Below, piece after piece: positions 684 to 54,534 of a stretch of 64,000 nucleotides of DNA (positions are counted from its first letter, which is position 1; the number at the start of each line of letters is the position of its first letter). Under the pieces are notes generated by a model. The model saw nothing but the letters and a program-made list of their open reading frames with translations. It was not told the DNA's origin and did no database searches. The stretch comes from Aminivibrio sp. (GTDB lineage: Bacteria; Synergistota; Synergistia; Synergistales; Aminobacteriaceae). Position numbers and translations under genes: made by a program. The stretch lies in assembly GCF_016756745.1 (NCBI RefSeq), contig NZ_JAESIH010000047.1:1-64000 (forward strand), read 5' to 3'.

Positions 684-740
684 CCTAAATCCGCAGGTTT
701 TTCAGGCAGAGGGAATGTCGCCGGTGCCTGCGGATTTAGG
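684..740 (+). mobile_element. Palindromic MITE-like element, copy A (57 bp)
   Basis: The terminal inverted repeat is CCTAAATCCGCAGG at the left and CCTGCGGATTTAGG at the right, 14 bp and perfect. The inner sequence TTTTTCAGGCAGAGGGA is the left-end module shared with copies C, D, E, G and H. The direct repeat GAGGT flanks both ends (679-683 and 741-745), a perfect 5-bp target-site duplication. It lies between the divergent genes mce and the 813 gene. A weak extended -10 (TGATATAGT, 775-783) follows on the plus strand. Confidence 0.85.
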
Positions 741-812
741 GAGGTTTCGCCATCTTTATCAGCCTGTGGAAAAATGATATAGTTATCCGGAACGGGGAGG
801 GAGGATGACGCA

Positions 813-1196
813 GTGAACCTGATAACATGCAAGCTGTGCGGACGGCTTTTCAGTGCCACCCGCGGAAAGATATGCGTAACGTGTCTCGATGAAATCGACG
901 ACCTTTACCCGAAGGTCCGGGAGTTCCTCAGGGATCATTCAAAAGAGAACTTCAACGTGGAACAGATTGCCGACGGCATGGACCTGGACATCCGGTACGT
1001 CCAGGCCCTTGTTGAACTGGGGTACCTGGACAGAGGGCTCGGGACGGATCCTGAGGAGGAAGAGGAAAAGAGACGGAAGGAAGCTCTGGCACGGCAACTC
1101 CAGGCATCGCTGGAAAATTCGGCCTCCGCGAAAGCATCTGAAAATGCGGGGAAGACGTACGGACAGCAGCGCTACGGCTTTGGAAAGAAAAAATGA
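813..1196 (+). CDS. YvyF-like flagellar-region zinc-ribbon protein
   Basis: This 127-residue protein starts at GTG, because the upstream in-frame ATG at 804 hits a stop after three codons; the GGGGAGGGAGG ribosome site (about 794-804) fits. Two Cys pairs, CKLC (7-10) and CVTC (21-24), form a small zinc ribbon. A helical segment follows (about 30-70) with a winged-helix-like character. The C-terminus is highly charged with EEEEEKRRKE and ends in lysines. The pattern matches the YvyF/TIGR03826 family found in flagellar gene regions of Firmicutes, whose molecular role is not established. A strong terminator follows it, so it appears monocistronic. Family assignment is from memory of the motif layout and is moderately secure. 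Confidence 0.55.
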   Translation: MNLITCKLCGRLFSATRGKICVTCLDEIDDLYPKVREFLRDHSKENFNVEQIADGMDLDIRYVQALVELGYLDRGLGTDPEEEEEKRRKEALARQLQASLENSASAKASENAGKTYGQQRYGFGKKK

Positions 1197-1200
1197 AACC

Positions 1201-1235
1201 AAGGGAGAAGATGCCCTCGCTCTTCTCCCTTTTTC
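1201..1235 (+). terminator. Intrinsic terminator after the YvyF-like gene
   Basis: AAGGGAGAAG (1201-1210) pairs perfectly with CTTCTCCCTT (1222-1231), followed by a T run. It begins four bases after the stop codon. The convergent usp gene ends just beyond it at 1242. Confidence 0.85.
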
Positions 1236-1241
1236 TTCTGT

Positions 1242-1700
1242 TCAGAGTATCTGCAGGCCCGGCCTGTAGATGAGCACGGAGCAGTGGGCGTATCTCGCCA
1301 CGTTCGAGGCCGTGCTTCCCACGACGAGACGCTCTATGGTGCTTTGGCCCCTGTAGCCGATGACGATGAGATTGAAGTCGTTCTCCTTGGCGTAGTTCAT
1401 GATGACGTCCGAGGGGTTCCCTTCCTTGACCACCATCTTGTATTCCACATTTTCCAGTTCCGGAAGATCTTTTTTCGTCTTTTTGAAGTAGTAGTCAAGC
1501 TTCTTCCGTGCGATTTCCGCCACTTCCGCGTCAATCTCGGGAGGCAGCCAGGGTTCGTACCCCCGCCAGAGGGTGGGGTGAGGCAGGACGTGGATAAACG
1601 CCGCCTCGGCCTTGAGACGGAGTGCCAAGGAGCATCCGTAGGCAAATACCTCCTCGGACATCTTGCTCATATCGACCGCCACGAGTACTTTTCCGGACAT
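1242..1700 (-). CDS. Universal stress protein, UspA family (ATP-binding type)
   Basis: This 152-residue cytoplasmic protein has a single Usp domain. The N-terminal strand KVLVAVDMS carries the Asp that contacts adenine. The C-terminal segment GYRGQSTIERLVVGSTA fits the G-2x-G-9x-G(S/T) nucleotide-binding signature, which places it in the ATP-binding subgroup. Such proteins act as stress and energy-state switches; the partner here is unknown. It is transcribed alone, divergently from the prepilin peptidase, and ends against the terminator of the 813 gene. Confidence 0.9.
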   Translation of the reverse strand: MSGKVLVAVDMSKMSEEVFAYGCSLALRLKAEAAFIHVLPHPTLWRGYEPWLPPEIDAEVAEIARKKLDYYFKKTKKDLPELENVEYKMVVKEGNPSDVIMNYAKENDFNLIVIGYRGQSTIERLVVGSTASNVARYAHCSVLIYRPGLQIL

Positions 1701-1862
1701 GGGTCTCCCTCCTCGCTTTGTCTTTTCATTATCCGAAACGAAATTCCCCTTCCATTGAATTATACGATATTTCTAGGCAGGTGTTCAATTTTTTCCTGAG
1801 AAACCTGTCGAAGTATGCTATAAATATCTCCATATCCGTTTGTTCCCTGGGGGGGAAATAGC

Positions 1863-2636
1863 GTGAATTCCTGGCCGGTCGTTCTGTTCTTCACTCTTCT
1901 GGGAGCTTCCCTGGGCTCTTTTCTGAACGTGGTCGCCGGGCGCAGTGTCGCGGGCACGCCGTGGTGGGGCGGCAGCAGGTCGCAATGTCCCCGGTGCGGT
2001 GCCGTCCTGGGCTGGAGGGATCTCGTTCCCGTCCTGTCCTGGATGGTTCTCAGGGGCCGCTGCCGCTACTGCGGCGGCAGAATCGCCTTCCGGTACGTGG
2101 CGGCGGAAATCTGCGGGGCCGCAATGGGAGGGGTGCTTGCCTGGCGCTGGGGTCTTTCCGTTGCCCTGTTTTTTTCAATGGTGACGGCCTTCGGTCTCTT
2201 TCTCAACGCCCTTACCGACCTCGAGGAAGGCTATATTTTCGATATTTTCCCCCTCGCCATGGGGATATGCGGCATCGTCCTCAGACTGCTGCCCGAAGGA
2301 GGCTCCCTTCTCGACGGGCTTTACGGCGCTGCCGCAGGCTTTGCAATTATCGCCGTCATCATTCTTCTATCAGGGGGAGGCATGGGCTGGGGAGATGCCA
2401 CTCTGACGGCGGGCGCAGGGATGATCCTGGGGTGGAAATTGACCCTGCTGACGCTCTACCTCGGTTTCATGGCGGGGGGCGTGTTCTCCGTCGCCCTGCT
2501 TGCCGCAGGAAAACTGCGCAGAAAAGACGCCGTTCCGTTGGTTCCCTTCCTGGCCGTAGGAGGGGTTCTTACCCTTCTGTTCGGCCCGTGGATTCTTTCC
2601 CTCCTAAATGTCGATCCAGGGCAGCCATGGAGATGA
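1863..2636 (+). CDS. pilD: Prepilin peptidase / N-methyltransferase, type IV leader peptidase (A24)
   Basis: This integral membrane aspartyl protease of 257 residues cleaves and N-methylates type IV prepilins and pseudopilins. An N-terminal segment GSFLNVV precedes a cytoplasmic zinc site of two Cys pairs, CPRC (about 40-43) and CRYC (about 62-65), typical of bifunctional PilD/PulO. The catalytic aspartates lie in LTDLEEGYIFD (about 118-128) and GMGWGDATL (about 174-182). About seven hydrophobic segments follow. It starts at GTG in front of the block GGGGGGAAATAGC. No pilin genes lie nearby. Its 3' end overlaps the convergent hydrolase by 68 bp. Confidence 0.9.
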   Translation: MNSWPVVLFFTLLGASLGSFLNVVAGRSVAGTPWWGGSRSQCPRCGAVLGWRDLVPVLSWMVLRGRCRYCGGRIAFRYVAAEICGAAMGGVLAWRWGLSVALFFSMVTAFGLFLNALTDLEEGYIFDIFPLAMGICGIVLRLLPEGGSLLDGLYGAAAGFAIIAVIILLSGGGMGWGDATLTAGAGMILGWKLTLLTLYLGFMAGGVFSVALLAAGKLRRKDAVPLVPFLAVGGVLTLLFGPWILSLLNVDPGQPWR

Positions 2637-3420
2637 GAAGCATCTGCTCAAGGGGTTCCCGGGAGGGGACCCCTTCTTTTTTACGAAAAGAATGATCCGC
2701 TCCCTCTATGATGCAGAATTTCTTTCTCGTTTCAGGGAGGGGGAGCCTGTCGAAAATCCTCCGGGAGGACTCTTCGCTGAAGCTTTCGTCGCGGCTTCCG
2801 TAAAAAAAGAGGGCAAAGGCGGGAGAGGCGTCCGAAGCGGCCCGGAGAAGTTCGGTCTTGTCGCCGATGTTGTCGAGGATAGGCAGGGAGAGCACGGCGG
2901 ATGCTTCGGGCCGTAGTTCGTCGCCGCTGCCGGAGACAATGAGCCCGGCGGCATTTCTTTCCCGGGGAGGAGTCAGCCCTGCGGAGGCAATATAGCCGGC
3001 CGTTTTCTTCCCCGCCATGAGAACAGCGATAAGCCCTCCGAGGGAAAACCCCCAGAGAACGGGGGATGAGACCGAAAATGTACGGCAGAAGCATTCAAAG
3101 GCCGAGCACGCGTCGAAGACTTCCATGGAAAGGGTCTTTCCGCGGAAAGCTGTTTTCGCCCAGGAAGTTCTGTCGTCGCCGAAGGTTTCCCTGTCCCTTC
3201 TCAGCCGGGAGCTTTCTGCGATGCAGGCGGAAACTCCATGAGCAGCGAGTTCTCCGGCCAGGAAGCCGTACTTGTTTCCCTCCATGGGGGAAGCCCAGCC
3301 GTGAACGCCGTGCAGAAGCAGAACCGCTGGTGTGTCCGGGTCACTTCCCCCACGGAAGAAATGCAGGAGAACCTCCCGGTCGCCGAAACTCCCCGGGGCT
3401 TTTACCGTGACATACTCCAT
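2569..3420 (-). CDS. Alpha/beta hydrolase (dienelactone-hydrolase-like), unknown substrate
   Basis: This 283-residue protein has an alpha/beta-hydrolase core. LLLHGVHG (about residues 35-42) gives the oxyanion hole, GFSLGG carries the nucleophilic Ser, YGSRDES the acid and GADHSF the His. The ATG at 3420 is chosen because GGAGG lies 8 nt upstream; the longer reading frame to 3480 would start inside the promoter. A recognisable promoter precedes it. It may hydrolyse an ester or lactone, but nothing in the context fixes the substrate. Its last 68 bp overlap the end of the convergent prepilin peptidase gene, so one of the two C-termini is probably unusual. Confidence 0.75.
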   Translation of the reverse strand: MEYVTVKAPGSFGDREVLLHFFRGGSDPDTPAVLLLHGVHGWASPMEGNKYGFLAGELAAHGVSACIAESSRLRRDRETFGDDRTSWAKTAFRGKTLSMEVFDACSAFECFCRTFSVSSPVLWGFSLGGLIAVLMAGKKTAGYIASAGLTPPRERNAAGLIVSGSGDELRPEASAVLSLPILDNIGDKTELLRAASDASPAFALFFYGSRDESFSEESSRRIFDRLPLPETRKKFCIIEGADHSFRKKEGVPSREPLEQMLLISMAALDRHLGGKESTGRTEG

Positions 3421-3451
3421 CCTTTCGGCCTCCTTCATCGTGGTTGGACAA

Positions 3452-3480
3452 ATTATCCCCGTTTCCCTCCCTGTTTTCAA
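3452..3480 (-). promoter_or_regulatory. Sigma-70-type promoter for the hydrolase gene
   Basis: On the minus strand TTGAAA (3475-3480) and GATAAT (3452-3457) are separated by exactly 17 nt. The transcript would start near 3445, just upstream of the ATG at 3420. The -35 box lies 11 nt from repeat copy B. Confidence 0.6.
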
Positions 3481-3491
3481 CTTTTCCAGTG

Positions 3492-3522
3492 CCCCTAAAT
3501 CCGCTGCCTGCGGATTTAGGGG
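3492..3522. repeat. Minimal palindromic element, copy B (31 bp)
   Basis: CCCCTAAATCCGC (3492-3504) and GCGGATTTAGGGG (3510-3522) form a perfect 13-bp inverted repeat around a TGCCT loop. The two terminal repeats of the larger family copies are here almost back to back. It lies between two divergent promoters, 11 and 12 nt from their -35 boxes. I see no target-site duplication. Confidence 0.8.
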
Positions 3523-3534
3523 AAAACCGGGAAA

Positions 3535-3563
3535 TTGACAAATAGCCCCGGAAAGAGTATCGT
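3535..3563 (+). promoter_or_regulatory. Promoter of the thiamine-precursor transport operon
   Basis: A consensus -35 TTGACA (3535-3540) is followed after 17 nt by TATCGT (3558-3563). Transcription would begin near 3570, directly at the 5' end of the TPP riboswitch. Confidence 0.7.
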
Positions 3564-3573
3564 ACCCATGACA

Positions 3574-3666
3574 GCAACTGGGGGAGTCGGCGTGAACCGG
3601 CTGAGAGGGAGCTTTTGGGCTCCGACCCCTGGAACCTGATCCGGGTCATGCCGGCGAAGGGAAGTG
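3574..3666 (+). ncRNA. TPP (THI-box) riboswitch
   Basis: The conserved aptamer blocks are present in order: GGGGGAGTCGG, then CTGAGAGGGA (3601-3610), then GACCCCTGGAACCTGATC, then GTCATGCCGGCGAAGGGA. These form the P1-P5 helices that bind thiamine pyrophosphate. A strong terminator follows 36 nt later, immediately before the first gene, so bound TPP should stop transcription of the transport operon. Confidence 0.97.
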
Positions 3667-3701
3667 TGTGTTTTGCTGAAGCAAATGCATGAAGACTTCC
3701 G

Positions 3702-3730
3702 CTCCCGGCATTTCCAGCCGGGAGTTTTTT
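3702..3730 (+). terminator. Riboswitch-controlled terminator overlapping the thiZ ribosome site
   Basis: CTCCCGGC (3702-3709) and GCCGGGAG (3717-3724) form a perfect 8-bp stem, followed by six T residues (3725-3730) that abut the ATG at 3731. The 3' arm contains GGGAG, the only ribosome-binding site for thiZ. The same hairpin could therefore act on both transcription and translation. Confidence 0.9.
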
Positions 3731-4465
3731 ATGCTTGAAATCAGATCCTTCTCCAAGAGTTTTGAAAGTCGTCCTGTTTTTTCCGATTTCTCCCTTTCCG
3801 CCGAACGGGGAAGTTTTACCGTGCTCCTTGGACCGTCGGGATGCGGCAAGAGCACCCTGTTCAACATGCTCATGGGAGTTCTTCCACGGGACGGCGGCCG
3901 CATCTCCCTCGACGGCCGGGAAATACCGGACCTGAGAGGCGCGGCGGGCTACATGGCCCAGAAAGACCTTCTGCTCCCCTGGAAGACCATGACGGAAAAC
4001 GCCCTTCTGCCCGTGATGGTAAGAAGAACGCCCACGGAAGAAGATTTCCGCAGGGTGGCGGATCTCTTTTCCCTGCTGGGGCTCTCAGGCCGGGAAGACT
4101 ATTTCCCCGGGCAGGTATCCGGAGGGATGGCCCAGCGGTGTGCCCTGGCACGGACGATCCTGTTCGACGCACCGGTCGCCCTCCTGGACGAACCCCTTTC
4201 CGCCCTCGACGCCATAACCAGGCGGACCCTTCGTGGACTGCTTCTCCTTTTGCAGTCCCGCTTCGGGAAAACCATCCTCATGGTGACCCACGACGTGGAA
4301 GAGGCCCTTCTGTTGGCCGACAGCATCCTGCTGCTCTCCCCTCCTCCGATGAAAATCCTGGAGATTTTCCGGCCGGAAGGAACAAAGGACTCGAGAGAAG
4401 ATTCGCCGTCCTTCCCGGGGATAAAGCGACGGCTTCTGAATCTCCTCCAGGAGGGTTCCCGATGA
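3731..4465 (+). CDS. thiZ: Thiamine-precursor (HMP) ABC transporter, ATP-binding protein
   Basis: This 244-residue ABC ATPase energises uptake of hydroxymethylpyrimidine or a related thiamine precursor. Walker A is GPSGCGKSTLF (about residues 35-45), the signature is SGGMAQRCALAR and Walker B is PVALLDEP. A switch His follows in MVTHDVEEA. The start at 3731 is preferred to an in-frame ATG at 3689 because the latter lies upstream of the riboswitch terminator. The stop overlaps the permease start as ATGA. The precise pyrimidine substrate is inferred from the riboswitch and the NMT1/THI5-like binding protein. Confidence 0.88.
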   Translation: MLEIRSFSKSFESRPVFSDFSLSAERGSFTVLLGPSGCGKSTLFNMLMGVLPRDGGRISLDGREIPDLRGAAGYMAQKDLLLPWKTMTENALLPVMVRRTPTEEDFRRVADLFSLLGLSGREDYFPGQVSGGMAQRCALARTILFDAPVALLDEPLSALDAITRRTLRGLLLLLQSRFGKTILMVTHDVEEALLLADSILLLSPPPMKILEIFRPEGTKDSREDSPSFPGIKRRLLNLLQEGSR

Positions 4466-5208
4466 GAAAGGCGGCCCTTCCCCTGCTGTTTCTCGTCGCG
4501 TTTCTGGCTTTCTGGGAGGTCTTCTGCAGGATGTTCAACCTTCCGCCCTTTCTTCTTCCCGCTCCTTCAAGGGTGGCGCTCGTTCTCGCGACGGAGGCCC
4601 CTCTCCTCCTAAGGCACGGGCTGACCACGACCCTGGAAATACTTCTCGGGATCCTTCTCTCCCTTGCGGTGGGCATCCCCCTGTCCATTGCCATGTTTTT
4701 CTCTCCCGCTCTCGAAAAAGCCCTTTCTCCCCTGCTGATCGCATCCCAGGCGATTCCGGTCTTCGCAGCCGCTCCCCTTCTGGTGGTCTGGTTCGGTTAC
4801 GGCATGGGGAGCAAGGTGGCCATGGCGGCGGTGATTATCTTTTTCCCGGTGACGGTGACCCTGCTGCAGGGGTTCAAGAGCTGCGATCCCGACCTGAAAA
4901 CCCTTTTTTCCGTCATGGGAGCCGGCTTCCTGACGACCCTGCGCCACCTTTACTGGCCCTGGGCCCTTCCCTATTTCTTCGCCGGCCTGAGGGTTGCCGT
5001 CTCGGTGGCGGCCATCGGCGCCGTCATCGGCGAATGGGTGGGAAGCCTGGACGGCCTCGGTTTCCTGATGATGCAGGCAAATGCCCGCCTCAGGGTTGAT
5101 CTCGTCTTTGCCTCTATCGTCGTCCTTTCGGCAGTCAGCCTCTCCCTGTGGGGAGCCGTCTGCTTCCTCGAAAATAAAACCGTCCGATGGGCGGAAAAGA
5201 AACGGTGA
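4462..5208 (+). CDS. thiX: Thiamine-precursor ABC transporter, permease
   Basis: This 248-residue inner-membrane permease of the SsuC/TauC-like type has about six transmembrane helices. The EAA-type loop is visible where MGAGFLTTLRHLYWPWALPYFFAGLR contacts the ATPase; the conserved Gly is followed by hydrophobic residues. It begins with a 4-nt ATGA overlap with the ATPase, so translation is coupled. It forms the pore for the precursor delivered by ThiY. Confidence 0.88.
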   Translation: MRKAALPLLFLVAFLAFWEVFCRMFNLPPFLLPAPSRVALVLATEAPLLLRHGLTTTLEILLGILLSLAVGIPLSIAMFFSPALEKALSPLLIASQAIPVFAAAPLLVVWFGYGMGSKVAMAAVIIFFPVTVTLLQGFKSCDPDLKTLFSVMGAGFLTTLRHLYWPWALPYFFAGLRVAVSVAAIGAVIGEWVGSLDGLGFLMMQANARLRVDLVFASIVVLSAVSLSLWGAVCFLENKTVRWAEKKR

Positions 5209-5251
5209 TGGATTCCTTGCCGTTATTATCTCTATAATTGGAGGGAATATC

Positions 5252-6187
5252 ATGAAACGAAACCGCGCCTGCCTGATGCTTCTTGTTCTGCTGTTCCTTG
5301 TCTCACCCGCCGGGGGAGAAGAAAAGCTTACCCTGATGCTCGACTGGTTCCCCAACGTGGACCATGTCCCCCTCTTCGTCGCAAGCCAGGGAGGCATCTT
5401 CTCGAAGCACGGTCTTTCGGTGGAACTGCGGAGCCCCTCCGACAGCGCCGACCCCCTGAAGCTCGCCGCCGCCGGGCATGTGGACATCGCTCTTTCGTAC
5501 CAACCCCAGGCGATCATCGCGGCTTCAGGGGGAATACCGCTGAAGGCCGTGGGGCGCCTCGTGGGAAGCCCCCTCTCGACCCTCCTCTTTCTTGACGGGA
5601 AGGGAATAGATTCTCCTGCCGACCTTGAGGGAAAGACCATCGGCTATACCGTTCCCGGCATGATGGACCACCTTCTCGGCGCCTTCGCAGCCATCAACGG
5701 GATCAAAAAGTACACGCCGGTAAACGTGGGATTCGTCATCCTTCAGTCCCTGGCGGCAGGCAAGGTAGACGCCGTCATGGGGCCTTTCAAGAATTACGAG
5801 CCCGTCGCCATGGAGATGGAAGGATATCCCGCATCCTTCTTCGAGCTCGAGAAATTCGGCATCCCCGCCTATGACGAACTGGTATTCGTGACCGGGACGA
5901 TGACCTGGGACAGGAAAGCGGAAACGATACGGCGGTTCCTCGACGCAGTGGAAGAAGCCATCGCTTTCACGGCGGCCCGTCCGGAGGAGGCCCTTGCTCT
6001 CTATTTCGAGGCCGTTCCGGAAGCCCCGAGGGAGATGGAAAGAAAAGCCTTTGAAAAAACGAGGGCCTGGTTCGGGCCTGATACCCGGCTCGACATCGTC
6101 CGCTGGAAAGCCTTCGCTGATTTCGCCCTTCAGTGGGGAATGATCGACAAGGAAGTGAACATCTATGAAATCGTTGCTGAAAGGTAA
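5252..6187 (+). CDS. thiY: Thiamine-precursor ABC transporter, substrate-binding protein (NMT1/THI5-like)
   Basis: This 311-residue exported protein has a signal peptide of about 23 residues (MKRNRAC, hydrophobic LMLLVLLFLV, SPAGG). The mature part begins LTLMLDWFPNVDHVPLFVA, the hallmark of NMT1/THI5-like pyrimidine-binding proteins. GGAGGG lies 6 nt before the ATG at 5252; upstream in-frame codons overlap the permease and are not used. It should bind HMP or formylaminopyrimidine in the periplasm for ThiXZ. There is no lipobox Cys at the cleavage site. Confidence 0.88.
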   Translation: MKRNRACLMLLVLLFLVSPAGGEEKLTLMLDWFPNVDHVPLFVASQGGIFSKHGLSVELRSPSDSADPLKLAAAGHVDIALSYQPQAIIAASGGIPLKAVGRLVGSPLSTLLFLDGKGIDSPADLEGKTIGYTVPGMMDHLLGAFAAINGIKKYTPVNVGFVILQSLAAGKVDAVMGPFKNYEPVAMEMEGYPASFFELEKFGIPAYDELVFVTGTMTWDRKAETIRRFLDAVEEAIAFTAARPEEALALYFEAVPEAPREMERKAFEKTRAWFGPDTRLDIVRWKAFADFALQWGMIDKEVNIYEIVAER

Positions 6188-6686
6188 CGGGAAAGCCCGA
6201 ATCAGAAAACTGACCTTCGCCGGGCTCCTTGTGGCAGCCGGGATTCTTCTGTCAGGCGTTTCCTTCCCCATGGGGCCCACGCGGTGTTACCCCTTCCAGC
6301 ACACCATGAACGTCCTCGCCGGGGCAGCCCTGGGACCATGGTGGGCCGCCGGCGCCGCCTTCGTCACCAGCCTCGTTCGGAACATGACGGGAACGGGCAC
6401 TCTCTTTGCCTTCCCCGGGAGCATCCCCGGCGCCCTGGCGGCCGGACTGGCTTTCAGATATTTCAGGACCTCCAGGGCAGCCTTGGCCGAGCCTCTCGGC
6501 ACGGGGTTTGCGGGGGCGGCGATTTCAGCCTGGATTCTCGGCCCTGCCTTCGGGAAGCCTGCGGGGCTGTCAGTGCTTATGGGGGCCTTTCTTGCGAGCA
6601 GCATCCCCGGCGCGATTCTGGGCATGGGGCTGGTCCACGTGCTGAGGAGGACATCCCTCTCCCCGTTTTTCGAGGGGGGAAAATAA
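6165..6686 (+). CDS. thiW: ThiW, ECF-type S component for the thiazole precursor
   Basis: This 173-residue membrane protein has about five hydrophobic helices. Conserved ThiW blocks are KLTFAGLLVAAG, FPMGPTRCYPFQHTMNVLAGA, LVRNMTGTGTLFAFPGS and GALAAGL. ThiW proteins are predicted S components that import hydroxyethylthiazole using a shared EcfAAT energising module; no such module is in this window. It overlaps the 3' end of thiY by 23 nt and is the last gene of the TPP-regulated operon. Together with ThiXYZ it lets the cell take up both halves of thiamine. Confidence 0.9.
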   Translation: MKSLLKGNGKARIRKLTFAGLLVAAGILLSGVSFPMGPTRCYPFQHTMNVLAGAALGPWWAAGAAFVTSLVRNMTGTGTLFAFPGSIPGALAAGLAFRYFRTSRAALAEPLGTGFAGAAISAWILGPAFGKPAGLSVLMGAFLASSIPGAILGMGLVHVLRRTSLSPFFEGGK

Positions 6687-13500: not shown

Positions 13501-13765
13501 CCTGAATCCGCGCATTTTTCAGGCAGAGGGAGTGTCGCCGGGCATAAGGATTAGCCTTCCCCGGGGGCGAAGAGATCTCGCTCCGCGCTCTTTGCGGAGA
13601 GATCCCCTGAGGGAGAGAAACAGGCATGAATGTCGGTTTCACAGGCAGGCAACCGGCGAACGCCGGGAACCGCGGGGCGCGCCTGGGCAGTTGTCACGGA
13701 CGACAATCCGCACTTTCCGCCCAAGGGGTCCCCGGCGACGCTCCCCGCCGGGGTGCGGATTCAGG
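13501..13765 (+). mobile_element. Palindromic MITE-like element, copy C (265 bp)
   Basis: The ends read CCTGAATCCGC (13501-13511) and GCGGATTCAGG (13755-13765): both carry the same change relative to the family consensus, so the inverted repeat stays perfect. TCGA occurs on both outer sides (13497-13500 and 13766-13769), an imperfect trace of a 5-bp duplication. Inside are the TTTTTCAGGCAGAGGGA module, a CTCCGC-GCTCTTT-GCGGAG hairpin and a GACAACTGC-related hairpin. It separates gyrA from the nitroreductase gene, and no credible ORF lies in it. Confidence 0.8.
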
Positions 13766-20212: not shown

Positions 20213-20576
20213 CCTAAATCCGCTAATTTTTCAGGCAGAGGGAATGTCGCCGGGCACAGCGCCCGGGCCGAGAAACCGACACGGATGTCGGTTTCAGGTG
20301 CAGTTGTCAAGGACGACAATCTGCACCCCCCGCCCAAGCGTTCCCCGGTGACACTCCCCAGGGGCGAAGAGATCTCGCTCCGCGCTCTTTGCGGAGAGGC
20401 CCCTGGGGGAGGGCGCCTGAGGTGAGAAAAACCGACACGGATGTCGGTTTCACAGGCAGGCAGCCGGCGAACGCAGGGAGCCGCGGGACTCGCTTGGGCA
20501 GTTGTCAAAGGCGACAATCTGCACCCCCCGCCCAAGCGAGTCCCGGCGACGCTCCCCGCCGGGGTGCGGATTTAGG
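20213..20576 (+). mobile_element. Palindromic MITE-like element, copy D (364 bp, composite)
   Basis: This is the largest copy, with perfect ends CCTAAATCCGC (20213-20223) and GCGGATTTAGG (20566-20576). A block containing GAAACCGACA-CGGA-TGTCGGTTTC and then GCAGTTGTC...GACAATCTGC occurs twice (near 20274-20340 and 20430-20535), so it is an internal duplication or fusion of two copies. Between them is the CTCCGC-GCTCTTT-GCGGAG hairpin nested in GGGGC/GCCCC arms. Flanks CCTAA and GCACC do not match. It lies between divergent dctP and the cupin gene. It is non-coding. Confidence 0.8.
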
Positions 20577-21593: not shown

Positions 21594-21850
21594 CCTAAAT
21601 CCGCAGGCAGCGGGGAGTGTCACCGGGGAACGCTTGGGCGGGGGGTGCAGATTGTCGTCCTTGACAACTGCCCAGGCGAGTCCCGCGGCTCCCTGCGTTC
21701 GCCGGTTGCCTGCCTGTGAAACCGACATCCGTGTCGGTTTCTCTCACCTCAGGCGCCCTCCCCAGGGGATAATCTCTTCGCCCCTGGGGAGGGCGAATTC
21801 ACCTTATGCCCGGCGACATTCCCTCTGCCTGAAAAATTAGCGGATTTAGG
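21594..21850 (-). mobile_element. Palindromic MITE-like element, copy E (257 bp)
   Basis: Ends CCTAAATCCGC (21594-21604) and GCGGATTTAGG (21840-21850) are perfect. The 5-bp sequence ATACC lies on both sides (21589-21593 and 21851-21855), a clean target-site duplication. The TTTTTCAGGCAGAGGGA module is at the right end, so it is reversed relative to copies A, C and D. Inside are GAAACCGACA/TGTCGGTTTC and an arm pair CCCCTGGGGAGGGC / GCCCTCCCCAGGGG around a short loop. It sits between divergent genes. Confidence 0.87.
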
Positions 21851-33900: not shown

Positions 33901-33957
33901 CCCAAATCCGCAGGTTTTTCAGGCAGAGGGGGGAGTCCCCGGTGCTCGCTTGGGCCC
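33901..33957 (+). repeat. Truncated palindromic element, copy F
   Basis: The left end CCCAAATCCGCAGG has one change from consensus and is followed by the TTTTTCAGGCAGAGGG module. It then joins GGTGCTCGCTTGGGCC, a segment that in copy G belongs to the opposite end. No right terminal repeat or target duplication is present. It lies between dctP and the 3' end of the GH57 gene. Confidence 0.65.
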
Positions 33958-34001
33958 CCGGACCAGGGGACGGTAAAGACCTTTCCCTGGGTTCCCGGTT
34001 T

Positions 34002-36502: not shown

Positions 36503-36666
36503 CCTAAATCCGCAGGCAGCGGGAGTGTCACCGGTGCTCGCTTGGGCCGCCGGTGCAGATTGTCGTCCTTGACAACTGCACCTGAAACCGACATCCGTGT
36601 CGGTTTCTCGGCCCGGGCGCTGTGCCCGGCGACACTCCCTCTGCCTGAAAAATTTGCGGATTTAGG
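36503..36666 (-). mobile_element. Palindromic MITE-like element, copy G (164 bp)
   Basis: Perfect ends CCTAAATCCGC (36503-36513) and GCGGATTTAGG (36656-36666) are flanked by ATGAC on both sides (36498-36502 and 36667-36671). It holds two clean inner hairpins: GAAACCGACA-TCCG-TGTCGGTTTC and GGTGCAGATTGTC...GACAACTGCACC. It matches the left part of copy D and may be the simplest complete form. It sits between divergent GH57 and malQ genes. A TATAAT for the GH57 gene (36488-36493) is close to its left end. Confidence 0.87.
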
Positions 36667-36753: not shown

Positions 36754-38241
36754 TTGAACAGAGCATGCGGCATCCTTCTCCCCGTCCCGTCCCTTCCCGG
36801 AGGGTACGGATCGGGAGACCTGGGAAAGCCGGCCCATGATTTCGTTGACTTTCTTTCCCGTTCCGGGCAGGCCATCTGGCAGGTCCTCCCTCTCACCGTG
36901 ACGGACGGCGCCCTCGGCAATTCGCCGTACAGCTCCCCGTCGGCCTTCGCGGGCAATCCCCTGTGCATTTCCCCGGATGATCTTGTCGCGGGGGGGTTGC
37001 TCCTCAGGGACGAACTTTCCGGTCATCCCGCCTTTCCTGAGGACCAGGTAGACTACGGCCCGGCGAGGGAGTTCAAGGAGGGCATCCTGCGGCTCGCCTT
37101 TTCCCGTTTTTCCCCGGGGGAAGAATACCGGGTCTTCCTCAGGGAACAGGAGTACTGGCTCGAAGACTACGTCCTGTTCACCGCCCTCAAGGGACTCTAC
37201 AAGGGCGCTCTCTGGAACGGCTGGCCGGAGAAGATCCGCGCAAGGGACAAAAAAGCCCTGCGGGAAGTCTCCGGTGATCTCCGGTGCGAGCTGGACTATC
37301 TCCGGTTCACCCAGTACATTTTTTTCTCCCAGATGAAGAGCCTCCGGGAAAAATGCCGGGAAGCGGGAGTGGAACTCATCGGCGACCTTCCCATCTATGT
37401 GAACTACGACAGCGCCGACGTTTGGTCCCATCAGTCCTTTTTTTGCCTTGACGGGGAGCTTCTGCCCACCGAGGTGGCAGGGGTGCCCCCCGACTATTTC
37501 AGCGAAACGGGGCAGCTCTGGGGAAACCCCCTTTACAACTGGAACGCACTGAAAAAGAACGGTTTCTCCTGGTGGATCCGGAGACTTCGCCATTCCCTCT
37601 CCCTGTTCGATATGGTAAGAATCGACCATTTCAGGGGGCTCCTCGCCTATTGGGCCGTTCCTTTCGGGGACAGGACCGCCGAGAGAGGGACATGGAGGCC
37701 GGTCCCATCGGAGGATTTTTTCAGCACCGTCAGGAAGGAACTCCCCTCCCTGCCCTTCCTGGCGGAAAACCTGGGGGTGATCACCCCCGACGTCACGGAA
37801 GCCATGGAGTCCATGGGATTTCCCGGCATGGCGGTGGTTCTTTTCGCCTTCGGCGGCGGAATGAGGGACAATCCCCATATCCCTCACAACTACCGGCGGA
37901 AACTGGCCGCCTATACGGGAACTCACGACAACAACACCATCGAAGGATGGTATTCCGAAGACGCCTCCGAGAACGAACGGCGGACATTCCTGGAGTACAC
38001 CGGCCGTTCCGCCGACGGTGTAAGCGCCGCGGACACGGTCATCCGGCTCGTCCTTTCATCGGTGGCGGAGCGGGCAGTGGTACCGCTCCAGGACTATCTG
38101 GGGCTGGGCTCGGAGGGAAGAATGAACACACCTTCGGTTCCCTCGGGGAACTGGGAATGGAAGGCCCGCCAGGAACACCTCTCCGTGGGGCTCTCCCAAA
38201 GGATGGCGAACCTTGCGGGCATCTACGGAAGAAAATCCTGA
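36754..38241 (+). CDS. malQ: 4-alpha-glucanotransferase (amylomaltase, GH77)
   Basis: This 495-residue GH77 enzyme transfers maltodextrin segments. RACGILLPVPSLPGGYGSGDLG and IWQVLPLTVTDGALGNSPYSSPSAFAGNP are the N-terminal signature. MVRIDHFRG supplies the nucleophile Asp, FLAENLGVITPDV the acid/base Glu and TGTHDNNTIEGW the transition-state Asp. The start is TTG at 36754 with GGAGGTG upstream and no better ATG. Its stop TGA lies inside the left terminus of repeat copy H; without the insertion the gene would end one codon earlier at TAG. Confidence 0.95.
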   Translation: MNRACGILLPVPSLPGGYGSGDLGKPAHDFVDFLSRSGQAIWQVLPLTVTDGALGNSPYSSPSAFAGNPLCISPDDLVAGGLLLRDELSGHPAFPEDQVDYGPAREFKEGILRLAFSRFSPGEEYRVFLREQEYWLEDYVLFTALKGLYKGALWNGWPEKIRARDKKALREVSGDLRCELDYLRFTQYIFFSQMKSLREKCREAGVELIGDLPIYVNYDSADVWSHQSFFCLDGELLPTEVAGVPPDYFSETGQLWGNPLYNWNALKKNGFSWWIRRLRHSLSLFDMVRIDHFRGLLAYWAVPFGDRTAERGTWRPVPSEDFFSTVRKELPSLPFLAENLGVITPDVTEAMESMGFPGMAVVLFAFGGGMRDNPHIPHNYRRKLAAYTGTHDNNTIEGWYSEDASENERRTFLEYTGRSADGVSAADTVIRLVLSSVAERAVVPLQDYLGLGSEGRMNTPSVPSGNWEWKARQEHLSVGLSQRMANLAGIYGRKS

Positions 38242-38446
38242 ATCCGCACCCCAGCGAGGAGCGTCACCGGAGACCACTTGGGCGGAAAGTGCGGATTGTC
38301 GTTCGTGGCAACTGCCCGGGCGAGTCCCGCGGCTCCCTGCCTTCGCCGGCTGCCTGCCTGTGAAACCGACATCCGTGTCGTTTTCTCTTCCCTCAGGTGC
38401 CCTCCCCGGCGACACTCCCTCTGCCTGAAGAATTTGCGGATTTAGG
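38237..38446 (-). mobile_element. Palindromic MITE-like element, copy H (210 bp), at the malQ stop
   Basis: The left end CCTGAATCCGC (38237-38247) and right end GCGGATTTAGG (38436-38446) differ by one transition, which would be a G-U pair in RNA. AAAAT lies on both sides (38232-38236 and 38447-38451), a perfect target-site duplication. The TCAGGCAGAGGGAGTGTCGCCGG module is at the right end. Removing the element and one AAAAT restores AAA-TAG, an in-frame stop for malQ. Confidence 0.87.
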
Positions 38447-49703: not shown

Positions 49704-50563
49704 GACCGGGACCTTCCTTCAGGGTTCCCGTTTTTCCGGAAGAAAGCGGAAATCTCGGAGTATCCCATGAGCCCCTGGGGCCGGTAGACCATGATGAGTA
49801 CGAGAAGAAGCCCGTAGGCCACCAGGCGCCACATCTGGGCCACCCTGAGGGCTTCGGGAAGGGCTATGAAGACGAATGAGGCGATGAGGGGCCCGGAGAT
49901 GCTGCCCATGCCTCCGGCGATGACCGCCGCCAGCAGCTGGGTGGACTGGACCAGGGTGAACATGACGGGCTGGATGAAGGAGAGGAAATGGGCCAGCAAA
50001 CCTCCCGAAAGGCCGCAGTACACGGCGCTCACCGCAAGGGAAAGGAGCCTGGTGCGGAAAAGCCGCACCCCCGCCATTTCGGCGGCCACGGGATCCTCCC
50101 GGATGGCGATGCAGGCTGCCCCCCAGCGGGAACGGAGGAAGTTCCGCGCCACGAGCACGCCCCCCGCGAGGCAGACCAGCACCACGGGGAGGGTTGTGAA
50201 ACCGTCGATGCCCGGAAGCCCCCTCGCGCCGTTGGTGATCTCGAGATTTTCGAGGATGACCCGCAGGGCTTCGCCGAAGCCGAGGATGGCGATGGCGAAG
50301 TAGTCGCTCCTGAGCTTCGCCCGAAGGGTGGGCACGCCGATGACCAGGCTGACGAGGCCGGCGGCTACACCCCCAGCCGCCAGGGCGAGATAGAAGGGAA
50401 CGTAATAGTAGTAGGTGAGGATCGCCGAAGTGTAAGCGCCGACGGCCACGAAGGCCGCGTGCCCCAGGGAGAAGAGCCCCGTGAACCCTGTGAAGATGGA
50501 GAGACCGAGCACGGCGATCATGTTGATGCACGCGAGAATGACGATGGAGAGAATATAGTCCAT
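49700..50563 (-). CDS. livM: Branched-chain amino acid ABC transporter, permease LivM
   Basis: This 287-residue permease has about eight transmembrane segments. GLSIFTGFTGLFSLGHAAFVAVGAYTSAIL and AIREDPVAAEMAGV are LivM hallmarks. The ATG at 50563 with AAGGTG upstream is used; the longer frame lies in livH. It lies 2 nt after livH. Confidence 0.94.
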   Translation of the reverse strand: MDYILSIVILACINMIAVLGLSIFTGFTGLFSLGHAAFVAVGAYTSAILTYYYYVPFYLALAAGGVAAGLVSLVIGVPTLRAKLRSDYFAIAILGFGEALRVILENLEITNGARGLPGIDGFTTLPVVLVCLAGGVLVARNFLRSRWGAACIAIREDPVAAEMAGVRLFRTRLLSLAVSAVYCGLSGGLLAHFLSFIQPVMFTLVQSTQLLAAVIAGGMGSISGPLIASFVFIALPEALRVAQMWRLVAYGLLLVLIMVYRPQGLMGYSEISAFFRKNGNPEGRSRS

Positions 50564-50565
50564 GG

Positions 50566-51450
50566 CTACACCTTTTCCTCGCTGTCCTGTCCGAGAAGTC
50601 CGTTCGGCCTCCAGACGAGGAAGGCTATCAGGAGCGTAAAGCTGAACACGTCCCGCATCACGCTCGACACATAGGAAGAGACGAAGGTCTCCACGACGCC
50701 GAGGACCAGTCCCCCGGCGAGGGCCCCGGGAAGGCTTCCCAGGCCGCCGATGACGGCGGCAATGTAGGCCTTGTTGGTGACCCATCCCATGGTGGGGTAG
50801 ACGAGGTATTTTATGCCCAGGAAGACTCCGGCCACGCCGGCGAATCCGCCGGCGAGAAGGAAGACGATGGAGATGAGCCTGTCCAGGTCAACTCCCATGA
50901 GGGAGCACATGGTCATGTCCGATACACCTGCACGGATAGCAATTCCTGTGCGGGTGCGGGTAATGAAAAGATGAAGTCCCAGGATGGCCGCAAGGGCGAA
51001 AAGGAAGGCACCTACGTCGAGAAGGCTGACACTGCTTCTGCCGATGGAGATCACCTGCCGTCCGAAGAACTCGGGAAAGGCATAAAACCTGGAGCCGATG
51101 GTGGCATAAACCAGGTTTTCGAGGAATACGGCGCACCCCATGGCACTGATCATGAGGTACAGGGAGGGAGCCTTCCGCCTGCGGAGGCTCGAATAGGCGA
51201 GCCGCTCGTTGAGAACGGCAATGATCCCCGCACCCGCGATGCTTCCCGCGAGAACGAGGCCGAATCCCAGGCTGAACTTCGTCGCCAGGGCAAGCCCCAC
51301 GTAGGCGCCGAGCATTATGACCGCTCCGTGGGCGAAGTTGCTGAAGTTGAGCACGCTGAAGACGAGGGAATACCCCACCGCCATCAGCGCGTAGATGCCT
51401 CCTATGGAGAGGCCCGTTATCAGAGTCTGAAGGAACAATCCGGCCCACAC
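50566..51450 (-). CDS. livH: Branched-chain amino acid ABC transporter, permease LivH
   Basis: This 294-residue permease begins at GTG with AAAGGAT upstream. GLSIGGIYALMAVGYSLVFSVLNFSNFAHGAVIMLGAYVGL is the diagnostic LivH start, and GTRTGIAIRAGVSDMTMCSLMGVDLDR follows. It is the first gene after a terminator-like hairpin downstream of livK, so it probably depends on readthrough. Confidence 0.95.
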   Translation of the reverse strand: MWAGLFLQTLITGLSIGGIYALMAVGYSLVFSVLNFSNFAHGAVIMLGAYVGLALATKFSLGFGLVLAGSIAGAGIIAVLNERLAYSSLRRRKAPSLYLMISAMGCAVFLENLVYATIGSRFYAFPEFFGRQVISIGRSSVSLLDVGAFLFALAAILGLHLFITRTRTGIAIRAGVSDMTMCSLMGVDLDRLISIVFLLAGGFAGVAGVFLGIKYLVYPTMGWVTNKAYIAAVIGGLGSLPGALAGGLVLGVVETFVSSYVSSVMRDVFSFTLLIAFLVWRPNGLLGQDSEEKV

Positions 51451-51516
51451 ATCCTTTGAGCGTATTGGGAAAGGTCGCCTCTCCTCCGGTTATCCCGGTT
51501 CCGGACGGATTTTTTC

Positions 51517-51557
51517 AAAAAAACCGGGGGAGCACCCGGGCGAAGGGCGCCCCCGGT
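51517..51557 (-). terminator. Terminator between livK and livH
   Basis: On the minus strand ACCGGGGG (51550-51557) pairs with CCCCCGGT (51523-51530), followed by seven T residues. It should make the binding protein more abundant than the membrane components. Confidence 0.85.
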
Positions 51558-51572
51558 AACACACAGCCGCGA

Positions 51573-52727
51573 CTATTCGACGGAGAAATACTTTTTCACG
51601 AACTTGAAGGTCTTGTTGGCCACGTCCACCTGCTGGATCACCGCAGGCTTGTCGAGGGGGTTGTGATCCTCGGGGTTGATGGTGAGGGGGCCGCTGGTAA
51701 CCTTGATGTCCTTCAGGTTGGCGAGGGCGTCGGCGAGCTTGGCGCCGTCGGTGGTCCCGGCCTTCTTCAGGCCTTCCACGATCATGATGAGGGCGTCCTG
51801 GGCCATGACGGGGTTCGGAAGCACAGGCTCCTCGCCGAAAGCGGCCTTGTACTCGGCCACGAAATCCTGGATATCGGGGTCGGCCAGATCCGCGAGGTTC
51901 ACGAAATACCCGCCGTCGATGGCGCTGCCGCCAAGCTCGATGAGATCCGGGCTGCCCCAGTTGTCCGTTCCGAGGAGTACGGCGCCGATGCCGAGGTCCC
52001 TGGCCTGCTTGGCGGCCATGGCGGCTTCCTTCTGGCTGGTGGGGATGAAGATGACGTCAGGGGCGAGATCCTTCATCTTGCCGAGCTGGGCCCTGTAGTC
52101 GAGCTCGTCGGTCCTGAAGGCCTCCTTCGCCACGATGGTGCCGCCCTTCTCCACGAAGGCCTCCTCGAAGTACTTCGCGAGCCACTGGCCGTAGTCCGAT
52201 CCAACGTCGTAGAGAATGGCGCCCTTCTTCGCCCCGAGGTCAGTCACGGCAAACCGGGCCGCCACCGTCCCCTGGAAAGGGTCAATGAAGCAGGGGCGGA
52301 AGGCGAAAGGACGAACCTTGCCGGACCTCTGGTCGATAGTCACGTAGGGGTTGGTGGCGGTGGTGACCACCATGGGGATGCCCGCCCTCTCGAATACGGG
52401 GGCTGAAGCGATGGCGTTGCCGCTCTGGGCAGGGCCGATGACGGCCACGACACCGTCGGAGACGAGCCGGCGGGCCACGTTGACCGCTTCGACCCCGTCA
52501 TTCCGGTTGTCGTAGCGGACGAACTCGATCTTCTTCCCGAGGACGCCGCCGGCGCCGTTGATCTTCTTCACGAGCATGTCAAGTGCCCGGGCCTCGGACT
52601 GTCCCCACATGGAAGCGCCGCCGGTGAGGGACACGGTATGGCCGATGCGGATCACGTCATCCGCGAAGGCGGCTCCCGCAAAGACAAGGATCAAGACTGC
52701 CGCTGCCATCATAAGGATCTTTCTCAT
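51573..52727 (-). CDS. livK: Branched-chain amino acid ABC transporter, substrate-binding protein LivK
   Basis: This 384-residue periplasmic protein has a signal peptide (MRKILMMAAAVLILVFAGAAFA). IRIGHTVSLTGGASMWGQSEARALDM and VAVIGPAQSGNAIASAPVFERAGIPMV are typical of type I periplasmic amino-acid binding folds. The ATG at 52727 is preferred; a TTG four codons upstream directly abuts the GGGAGG site and is too close. The ligand could be leucine/isoleucine/valine or another amino acid or amide. Confidence 0.92.
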   Translation of the reverse strand: MRKILMMAAAVLILVFAGAAFADDVIRIGHTVSLTGGASMWGQSEARALDMLVKKINGAGGVLGKKIEFVRYDNRNDGVEAVNVARRLVSDGVVAVIGPAQSGNAIASAPVFERAGIPMVVTTATNPYVTIDQRSGKVRPFAFRPCFIDPFQGTVAARFAVTDLGAKKGAILYDVGSDYGQWLAKYFEEAFVEKGGTIVAKEAFRTDELDYRAQLGKMKDLAPDVIFIPTSQKEAAMAAKQARDLGIGAVLLGTDNWGSPDLIELGGSAIDGGYFVNLADLADPDIQDFVAEYKAAFGEEPVLPNPVMAQDALIMIVEGLKKAGTTDGAKLADALANLKDIKVTSGPLTINPEDHNPLDKPAVIQQVDVANKTFKFVKKYFSVE

Positions 52728-52850
52728 TTCTTTTCTCAACCTCCCTGGTATTTGGCGTTTGTTTCCAATCCGATTTTCCGCCCGTCAGGACGGGGATCCA
52801 ACCGTCACTCTCTTTTTTTTCCGGCCCCACCTCCAGATATGGTGTTCCGT

Positions 52851-54155
52851 TCACTCCAGATGCTTCGGAATTCTGTCCCACCGGAGCACATCGTCGTAGG
52901 TCTGCCTCTCCGCGATCACGTCGGCCCGCCCCGGGCTCACCAGCACGGCAGCCGGTCGGGGAATGCGGTTGTAGTTGCTCGCCATGGAGAAGGTGTAGGC
53001 CCCGGTGTTCAGCACCGCGAGCAGGTCGCCCCGCTCCAGGGGAGGGACCTTCAGCCTCTCGATGAGCACGTCCCCGGACTCGCAGCATTTCCCGGCCACC
53101 GTCACCGTCTCCGTAGGTTCCCTGTTCATCTTGCCCGCCGCCACGGCCCAGTACTTCGCGCCGTACAGGGCGGGCCTCGGATTGTCCGTCATGCCCCCGT
53201 CAACAGCGACGTAGGTCACCATTCCGTCGATGGTCTTCACCGTCTGCACGGTGTACAGGGTAATTCCCGCCTCGGAGACGATCCACCGGCCCGGCTCGAT
53301 GATAACCTGAGGCAGGGGGATTCCCTCCGCGGCGCATCCCGCAGCGAGGGTCTCCATCATGGCGTCGGTGAAGGAGGCTATGGGGGGAGTCTTCCCTTCG
53401 GGGTCCAATTCCACGCCGTACCCCCCGCCCATGTTGAGTTCCATGGTGGTGAAACCGAGGTCCCGGGAAAATTCGGCAATGGTCTTTACCACGATTCCCA
53501 CGGCCATCACGTGGGATGTGTTCTCGAAAATCTGGGAACCGATGTGGAAATGGAATCCCCTGAGGGAAAGGCAGTCCGAGTCCATGGCTCTCCGCACCGC
53601 CGTTCTGAGGGAGTTCCCGAGGAGAGGAAACCCGAACTTGGAGCCCGTGTGGCCCGTAAGTATATATTTGTGGGTGTGGGCGTCCACCCCCGGGGTAACC
53701 CGGAAGAGGATGTCCGCCCTTTTTCCCGCTTTCCGGGCGATCTCTTCAAGGGCGTCGAGCTCCGAGGCGCCGTCCACGACGATCCGCCCCACTCCAGCAT
53801 CGAGGGCATAACGGAGTTCCTCCTCCGTCTTGCTGTTGCCGTGGAAAAAAACGTTTTCCATGGGGAAGCCGGCGGATTTTGCCGTGTGGAGCTCCCCTCC
53901 CGATACTACGTCGAGCCCCAGCCCTTCCGAGGCAATGATCCTGCACATGGCCAGGGGAAGGAAAGCCTTCCCGGCATACACCGCCAAGGCATTCGCCCAC
54001 CGGTCCATGAAGGATTCCCTCACCGCCCTGCATCGGGCCCGAATCCCCTCCTCGGACAAGACGTACAGCGGCGTCCCGAAACGCTCCGCCAGTTCCGTCA
54101 CGTCCCATCCTCCGAAGAGGAAATGCCCCCTGTCATTCACGTTCTGCTGGCCCAC
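52851..54155 (-). CDS. lysA: Diaminopimelate decarboxylase
   Basis: This 434-residue PLP enzyme makes lysine from meso-diaminopimelate. The PLP lysine lies in NALAVYAGKAFLPLAMCRI. HFHIGSQIFE and GGGYGVELDPEGKTP are fold-III decarboxylase signatures, and CCESGDVLIE supplies the active-site Cys. The GTG at 54155 is chosen because it lies downstream of the T-box terminator and has AGAGGTG 9 nt upstream. The open frame extending to 54434 is in the T-box leader and is not expected to be translated. Confidence 0.93.
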   Translation of the reverse strand: MGQQNVNDRGHFLFGGWDVTELAERFGTPLYVLSEEGIRARCRAVRESFMDRWANALAVYAGKAFLPLAMCRIIASEGLGLDVVSGGELHTAKSAGFPMENVFFHGNSKTEEELRYALDAGVGRIVVDGASELDALEEIARKAGKRADILFRVTPGVDAHTHKYILTGHTGSKFGFPLLGNSLRTAVRRAMDSDCLSLRGFHFHIGSQIFENTSHVMAVGIVVKTIAEFSRDLGFTTMELNMGGGYGVELDPEGKTPPIASFTDAMMETLAAGCAAEGIPLPQVIIEPGRWIVSEAGITLYTVQTVKTIDGMVTYVAVDGGMTDNPRPALYGAKYWAVAAGKMNREPTETVTVAGKCCESGDVLIERLKVPPLERGDLLAVLNTGAYTFSMASNYNRIPRPAAVLVSPGRADVIAERQTYDDVLRWDRIPKHLE

Positions 54156-54189
54156 TCCGGCTGCACCTCTTTCCGTTCGAAAAAAACGG

Positions 54190-54465
54190 TGAATAAAAAA
54201 CGACCCGCCCCGATGAAGGGACGAGTCGTTGAACTCGCGGTACCACCCTGCTTGGGCGCATGCCGCAGCGCCCCGCTCTCGGCTCTGTGACGGGAGCCTC
54301 CCGGAGGCGTACTTCCGGTTCATTCGAACCGTTTCAGCCCCGGCTCCGCAGTCTTTCGCTCCTCCGTTCCTGCCCGGGAAGCTTCTCAGCCTGTGGACTT
54401 CCCTCTCTGGCGGCAGATTCATTACTTCGGGCATTCTGCATCATCGCCTGTGCTTTCTTTGTTTC
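54190..54465 (-). ncRNA. T-box leader upstream of lysA
   Basis: The invariant T-box sequence AGGGTGGTACCGCG (54236-54249) is on the minus strand, preceded by a long structured leader containing AGAGAGGGAAG and GGCTGAGAAGCTTCC of stem I. Downstream, AACGACTCGTCCC and GGGCGGGTCGTT (about 54199-54230) form a terminator with a T run. Uncharged tRNA should stabilise the antiterminator and allow lysA transcription. A lysine specifier is expected; I see an AAA near 54354-54356 but cannot prove that it is the specifier. Confidence 0.93.
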
Positions 54466-54469
54466 GGAC

Positions 54470-54498
54470 ATTATATCCAGCGGGGGAAGGAACGTCAA
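54470..54498 (-). promoter_or_regulatory. Promoter of the T-box-lysA transcript
   Basis: TTGACG (54493-54498) and a perfect TATAAT (54470-54475) are 17 nt apart on the minus strand. The -35 is 15 nt from repeat copy I. Confidence 0.8.
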
Positions 54499-54513
54499 CA
54501 TAAAAAAAACGAA

Positions 54514-54534
54514 CCTAAATCCGCAGGATTTAGG
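54514..54534. repeat. Minimal palindromic element, copy I (21 bp)
   Basis: CCTAAATCC-GCA-GGATTTAGG is a perfect 9-bp inverted repeat with a 3-nt loop, the smallest family member. Flanks ACGAA (54509-54513) and ACGGA (54535-54539) match at four of five positions. It lies centrally between two divergent promoters, 15 and 14 nt from their -35 boxes. Confidence 0.75.

Follow-up and report, generated by a model that had tools for sequence, protein, structure and literature searches.

Miniature transposable elements in an Aminivibrio genome and the possible spread of a CsrA-binding RNA module

The question raised by a 64,000-nucleotide stretch of the genome of Aminivibrio sp. (contig NZ_JAESIH010000047.1, positions 1 to 64,000; hereafter the window) is why nine places in it share one palindromic terminus and what the hairpins between the ends might do. 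A previous description from the letters alone (the sequence-only reading) had proposed a family of modular, possibly mobile palindromes. The terminus was present at all nine places, with eight two-ended copies and one copy having only a left end (33901), and the inner hairpin modules it named were real. The best reading, to which we assign a probability of roughly 0.68, is that the elements are miniature inverted-repeat transposable elements (MITEs) spreading an RNA module that binds the regulator CsrA. Transposition, empty sites, a partner insertion sequence, the fold, covariation, the loop pattern and a host CsrA gene are each supported by sequence; binding to CsrA is likely (about two chances in three), and the module is presumed to be transcribed. 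The elements are listed below by window position.

684 to 740, no strand assigned: 57-bp MITE with ends CCTAAATCCGC / GCGGATTTAGG and 5-bp direct flanks GAGGT.
3494 to 3520, no strand assigned: 27-bp end-to-end palindrome of two ends only, without target duplication.
13501 to 13765, + strand: 265-bp MITE with both ends CCTGAATCCGC and 4-bp direct flanks TCGA.
20213 to 20576, + strand: 364-bp, apparently fused MITE with a 164-type half (20213-20358) and a 257-type half, without target duplication.
21594 to 21850, - strand: 257-bp MITE with 5-bp direct flanks ATACC and both GGA loops, about 70 nt apart.
33901 to 33990, no strand assigned: one-ended fragment with left end CCCAAATCCGC, its first 16 bp being the right end of the insertion sequence on contig C76 described below.
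36503 to 36666, - strand: 164-bp MITE with 5-bp direct flanks ATGAC.
38237 to 38446, - strand: 210-bp MITE with left end CCTGAATCCGC and 5-bp direct flanks AAAAT, inside the stop codon of a GH77 gene.
54514 to 54534, no strand assigned: 21-bp end-to-end palindrome with 2 mismatches in the right end and flanks ACGAA/ACGGA (4/5 match).

The sizes given in the sequence-only reading held for the copies at 684, 13501, 20213, 21594, 36503, 38237 and 54514; the 31 bp given for the copy at 3492 included flanking CC/GG, and its true size is 27 bp. The 11-mer terminus with two mismatches was not rare on its own, giving 25 window matches where 20 would be expected. The inverted pairing of ends together with the long shared interiors was far beyond chance, as the large copies were 85-100% complementary over 59-171 nt.

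The family extends well beyond the window. The exact end motif CCTRAATCCGC occurred 312 times (160 + 152) in the 2.94-Mb genome holding the window (G000; 2,941,343 bases in 100 contigs), against 4 + 11 occurrences for a reversed control pattern. Ends were paired mechanically (each with up to 2 mismatches, 2 in total, and a length of up to 700) in the window and in stretches around listed ends; since these stretches were drawn from the first 100 of the 312 end places, the element counts are lower bounds from a nonrandom sample. This yielded 54 elements, or 53 after one duplicate was dropped, counting only pairs whose ends had up to two mismatches. Exact 5-bp direct flanks were found for 29 of the 53, against a mean of 0.56 and a maximum of 4 for shuffled right flanks (2000 shuffles), while identical flanks of 4 bp were found for four and of 6 bp or more for none. 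Within the window, four of the eight two-ended copies (684, 21594, 36503 and 38237) had exact 5-bp duplications.

Empty orthologous sites were found in G001, one of four further genomes of the same genus (G001 to G004). The site of the 21594-21850 element was precisely empty, both flanks meeting at a single ATACC. The elements at 20213-20576 and 36503-36666 were also absent from their orthologous sites, with imprecise breakpoints for the former and a right breakpoint that was not clean for the latter. The 364-bp copy appears to combine a 164-type with a 257-type element, a fusion that would fit its missing target duplication. The window copies measure 21-364 bp and have the same ends as the C76 insertion sequence; given also a constant 5-bp duplication and empty orthologous sites, the elements are assigned to the nonautonomous transposons (MITEs), and that they transposed is near certain. 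The mobile-element guess of the sequence-only reading thus gained support from target duplications, empty sites and a partner insertion sequence. Stationary repeats of the repetitive extragenic palindromic (REP) or enterobacterial repetitive intergenic consensus (ERIC) kind were rejected because the elements have target duplications and empty sites. The 36503 element had no match in plasmids or phages.

The candidate source of transposase was a single gene, obtained by an IS1380 profile search of G000 and located on contig C76, a contig other than that of the window. It lies in a 1912-bp insertion sequence (IS; C76:3871-5782) with ends CCTAAATCCAC / CCCAAATCCGC and CGGTC on both flanks, adjoining a further MITE end. 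This is the full-length relative with the same ends for which a search had been suggested, and its transposase is probably of the IS1380 type: the 533-aa protein matched PF13701 at 67.8 bits (cut-off 34.7, passed) and NF033539 (IS1380) at 174.1 bits, just below the cut-off of 180, with a long insertion between the two profile-matched parts. A structure search using its sequence gave no match. The MITE interiors resembled the IS at the ends only (best 16 bp). The closest named relatives of the transposase, in Synergistaceae metagenome-assembled genomes (MAGs), were 64% and 53% identical, and their ISs had the same kind of ends and no 5-bp duplication. The 64%-identical one (L048) was bordered on both sides by an exact CCTAAATCCGC end, and since its MAG held only 6 exact ends, two being the IS itself, the IS need not be accompanied by a burst of MITEs. 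In G000, contigs C10, C22, C35, C41, C45 and C79 break off within 124-127 bp at the left of the IS, giving six left-end fragments of an IS 92-93% like it; from their position exactly at contig ends, a multicopy IS lost in assembly is deduced. A C76-type (IS1380-type) transposase is the likely mover of the MITEs. Another stretch, C41:303-2181, was rejected as a 1.9-kb IS, as it consists of a MITE, a reading frame (DedA-like by eye) and another end, with no transposase.

The interior of the elements was then assigned to two hairpins, H1 and H2, whose loop strand sets the orientation. H1 reads GACA-N-GGA-TGTC and H2 reads GTCA-N-GGA-X-GAC, and on one strand the module folds so that a closing stem encloses the two hairpins. 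Its occurrences in the window are as follows, those of the 21594 element having been given above.

13501 MITE, + strand: H1 at 13617 with GGA lost (loop TGAA); H2 at 13687-13711 with GGA kept (loop CGGA).
20272 to 20327, + strand: H1-H2 core of the 20213 element with GGA in both loops, matching RF01731 positions 49-107 at 39.0 bits (below the cut-off of 43).
20428 to 20522, + strand: second H1 and H2 of the 20213 element; GGA kept in H1 and lost in H2 (loop AAGGC).
36508 to 36652, - strand: RF01731 TwoAYGGAY match inside the 36503 MITE, 46.9 bits (gathering score 43).
36503 MITE, - strand: H1 at 36585-36607 and H2 at 36555-36579, with GGA in both loops.
38237 MITE, - strand: GGA kept in H1 and lost in H2 (loop CGAA).

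In 24 adjacent H1-H2 copies selected with the loops masked, GGA letters were changed at 0 of 144 positions, N at 16 of 48 and stems at 12 of 1056, the first N being C14/A6/G3/T1. An alignment was made of 21 distinct 132-nt cores from G000, G001 and G002 (alignment A3), leaving out five identical rows, four 106-nt rows, one 168-nt row and window:20234-20365. All 126 GGA letters were unchanged, while N was changed in 27/42 (Fisher p 8e-21, N against GGA), other unpaired positions in 40/418 and paired positions in 101/2180. The loop N was essentially random in both loops (A5/C5/G7/T4 and A8/C4/G3/T6), and X of H2 was C11/T8/A2. Both loops read A-N-GGA-X on a C-G closing pair. This pattern corresponds to the high-affinity form in RsmE structures, an ANGGAX hexaloop on a stem in which N and X loop out and can be any nucleotide (PMC4005645), and may be compared with the consensus RUACARGGAUGU selected for CsrA by systematic evolution of ligands by exponential enrichment (SELEX; PMC7652899). 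The GGA-to-GGA spacing of 28 nt in the core falls within the 10-63 nt reported as the bridging range of CsrA (PMC7652899) and was counted for the CsrA assignment.

That the module acts as RNA is suggested by its fold. Fold z-scores were -8.8 and -9.3 for two cores, and 96.1% of cells paired in A3. Seven pairs were changed on both sides, against 2.7 (standard deviation 1.0) in shuffles, none of 500 reaching 7, and 0-2 in slid versions of the alignment; relatedness can inflate such covariation scores. G-U pairs were kept in the closing stem (U-G in 12/21, G-U in 19/21), which favours RNA over DNA recognition. The latter, in which a protein would bind the module as a DNA hairpin or cruciform, for example in regulation or to the transposon's own advantage, is compatible with long near-perfect DNA palindromes lying in both orientations. 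It was nevertheless judged highly improbable, as the loop pattern is strand specific and matches the CsrA site ANGGAX letter by letter, in addition to the kept G-U pairs.

The loops persist in copies with decayed ends. Eight of the 21 A3 rows had ends at or near background, matching 4-8 of 11 letters (the null was mostly 5-6, and L294 had 8 on one side). In these rows N differed in 11/16, GGA in 0/48 and paired positions in 73/831. GGA was likewise found in both loops at 18 of 18 loci in G001 and G002 taken from a BLAST list, corresponding to 16 places because two pairs were orthologous. For the orthologous pair L311/L303, the core was changed at 1/126 positions and the flanks at 53/494 (p 6e-5), indicating a constrained core. 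The opposing explanation is that these are ordinary MITEs whose interior is DNA baggage, helped by palindromy in transposition or replication, and whose GGA loops stem from one recent founder. In its favour, the G000 copies are young and alike, many at 95-99%, a GGA is lost in three of the six hairpin-bearing window units, no orientation bias to genes was seen, and stable folds of no known function are reported for some prokaryotic MITEs (PMC4133298). A founder does not readily account for an N that is randomised beside an unchanged GGA in the same loops, for end-less copies that retain fold and loops, for compensatory changes in the stems, or for the same paired GGA hairpins in a second MITE family whose ends differ. 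It was accordingly considered quite unlikely.

That second family was observed in g29, a genus from another family of the same order. In four genomes the counts of its ends, GGGNAYCTCTAAAAA, were 54, 96, 10 and 22, against 1, 0, 0 and 0 for the control. Twenty elements of 221-250 bp were chosen by their ends alone (16 from G121 and two each from G123 and G118). Exact 4-bp duplications were found for 15 of the 20, against a shuffled mean of 3.5 and maximum of 9, the targets being A+T-rich. Nineteen of them had two ACAGGACGT hairpin loops; the other, L268, had one, through deletion. The g29 hairpins carry CAGGACG, and the repeat form of CsrB is CAGGA(U/A/C)G (PMC7652899, PMC4005645). By its other ends and its 4-bp rather than 5-bp duplications, the g29 family is judged unrelated to that of the window.

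The claim that the elements belong to no named family stood for the ends, which were in no catalogue searched (ISfinder was not among these), and fell for the interior of the 36503 copy, which is Rfam RF01731, TwoAYGGAY. Among the window copies, only 36508-36652 reached the gathering threshold. TwoAYGGAY is an RNA of unknown function for which CsrA binding was proposed in 2014 (PMC4333381). All counts of RF01731 that follow are lower bounds, up to 52 first-look candidates per genome being scored in the genus set and up to 14 in the phylum set. At least 30 matches at E ≤0.001 were obtained in G000, of which 5 of the 30 listed exceeded the cut-off; most G000 copies matched only RF01731 positions 49-107 or scored below the cut-off. 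At least 18 matches were found in G001 and at least 13 in G002, and none in G003 or G004 among the candidates scored. In the phylum Synergistota, at least 11 of 185 genomes and at least 4 of 62 genera were positive. The best match among those scored in the phylum was L199 (G168:C98:21979-22121; 64.9 bits), in a 55%-complete genome with one full and one partial copy. At L162 (G028:C2:75200-78300), two inverted 156-nt copies with RF01731-like hairpins were 97% alike and 1.8 kb apart, and loci of genera g24 and g47 were also seen in the survey. Two loop patterns gave 29 + 1 viral contigs, and none of the 20 of these 30 scanned with Rfam contained RF01731.

This distribution bears on a further explanation, that TwoAYGGAY is an ordinary small RNA or leader of the host that binds CsrA and that MITE ends captured a single time in this genus, so that MITE spread is incidental. 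Core copies without recognisable ends in G001 and G002, the single G168 locus with only one full and one partial copy, and the listing of RF01731 from human gut, gamma-Proteobacteria and Clostridiales (PMC2864571) all accord with it. Ends of intermediate decay were, however, found at L292, L295, L296, L298 and L299, which suggests that the copies lacking ends are old MITEs; in addition, the loci inspected showed no conserved neighbouring gene. Capture of a host RNA was therefore regarded as unlikely. Two pairs of loci were also noted. L290 (G001:C1:5550-6150) and L291 (G002:C15:24150-24800) occupy the same intergenic place with cores seemingly opposite in orientation by eye, which seems to reflect inversion or independent insertion, and L292 (G002) and L293 (G001) occupy an orthologous place with different element subfamilies, as if replaced or converted.

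A candidate receptor for the module is encoded by G000, which has one CsrA gene (PF02599, 86.6 bits). A CsrA gene was found in 26 of 40 genomes, including all five RF01731-positive genomes of that set, and co-occurrence was rejected as proof on the same count. G003 and G004 lacked both the CsrA gene and RF01731; because both are fragmented MAGs, this double absence, and the co-occurrence as a whole, is suggestive at most.

The MITE reading with a CsrA-binding module would then operate as follows. An IS1380-type transposase would act in trans on the ends CCTAAATCCGCACC.. and CCYAAATCCGCAGGTT.., making 5-bp target duplications, and most of the larger MITEs would thereby bring a module with two A-N-GGA-X loops into new places. 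Once transcribed, the module would bind CsrA, serving as a scattered decoy or, inside a transcript, as a local CsrA site, and it would be retained for this binding after the transposon ends had decayed. A wider proposal was also considered: that at least two unrelated Synergistota MITE families independently took up or kept paired CsrA-binding hairpins as transposable decoys, left behind as selected regulatory RNA after end decay, with TwoAYGGAY largely this class and transposition setting the size of the CsrA sink. We advance this only tentatively and would sooner expect it to fail than to hold.

Several observations weigh against the preferred reading. An exact duplication was missing from 24 of the 53 end-paired elements. 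The C76 transposase has Ala at the Asp of RSDxAG, which is Asp in all seven aligned relatives, and the assembled copy is therefore deduced to be probably inactive. The presence of CsrA in all five positive genomes is weak evidence because 26 of 40 genomes have it. The orthologous pair L310/L304 showed no divergence at all, and for L293/L292 the core differed more than the flanks (15/105 against 44/471). The H1 and H2 stems, at 10-13 bp, are longer than those of most SELEX winners, which had up to 4 contiguous pairs, and high stability of a stem may be a disadvantage (PMC7652899). The three window units that lost one GGA are 13501 (H1), 38237 (H2) and the second half of 20213 (H2), and in copies from a short BLAST search (51 H1, 43 H2) GGA letters were changed in 7/129 for H2 and 1/153 for H1. 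Eighteen CsrA-type sites were found in the window outside the elements, above the simulated maximum of 15.

Orientation pointed the same way. Among 15 G001 and G002 copies with heuristic gene calls, ten lay between codirectional genes, with the GGA strand sense in six and antisense in four, and the five among these ten without clear ends were sense in one case and antisense in four. This mixture does not favour read-through transcription and leaves a leader or 3' untranslated region role for all copies unsupported, though some copies do lie in sense leaders (L306, L310). No common promoter was seen at the copies, no search aimed at promoters having been made.

The surroundings of the window copies were also inspected. 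That all lie between genes was right as far as checked, except for the 38237 copy, which starts inside the stop codon of a 4-alpha-glucanotransferase (GH77) gene; at 38237-38241 the terminal CCTGA of the MITE provides a new stop codon in frame. A thiamine pyrophosphate (TPP) riboswitch at 3570-3679 (+ strand, 72.9 bits) lies a short way downstream of the 27-bp palindrome (3494-3520). The 21-bp palindrome (54514-54534) is about 60 bp upstream of the 5' end of a T-box leader-like match at 54214-54453 (- strand, 53.3 bits, below the cut-off of 93). Terminators or attenuators were rejected as an identity for the elements, as no T run, judged by eye, follows the ends of the window copies.

Both MITEs and Csr sponges are well known in their own right, and no report joining the two was found in the open-licence literature. 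If the proposed reading is true, transposition could titrate a global post-transcriptional regulator or place new sites for it beside genes. It would also provide a natural history for the orphan RNA family RF01731 and bear on the CsrA prediction of 2014 (PMC4333381).

The system is finally compared with those known. As in the IS1380 family, a PF13701/NF033539-type transposase lies on an element sharing the MITE ends, and captured IS1380 members are reported with a duplication of 5 bp in one case and 4 bp in another (PMC4133298); the C76 protein differs in that its score of 174.1 falls short of the cut-off of 180 and that a long insertion separates the matched parts. A search of the open-licence literature, as far as its texts were available, gave no description of IS1380 MITEs. 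QMITE1 and QMITE2 of Coxiella and other prokaryotic MITEs are reported sources of small RNAs; the targets of these are unknown, and the review text mentions neither CsrA nor IS1380 (PMC10969869). The outer stem and two GGA-loop hairpins at 36508-36652 are those of Rfam RF01731, here inside MITEs and with most copies partial or under the cut-off. The closest functional likeness is to CsrB, RsmY and RsmZ, with their repeated A(N)GGAX hairpin loops, and the CAGGACG of g29 is a CsrB repeat form (PMC7652899, PMC4005645). Known here from sequence alone, the present elements differ from these RNAs in that each copy has two sites, a genome contains many copies and the copies are mobile.

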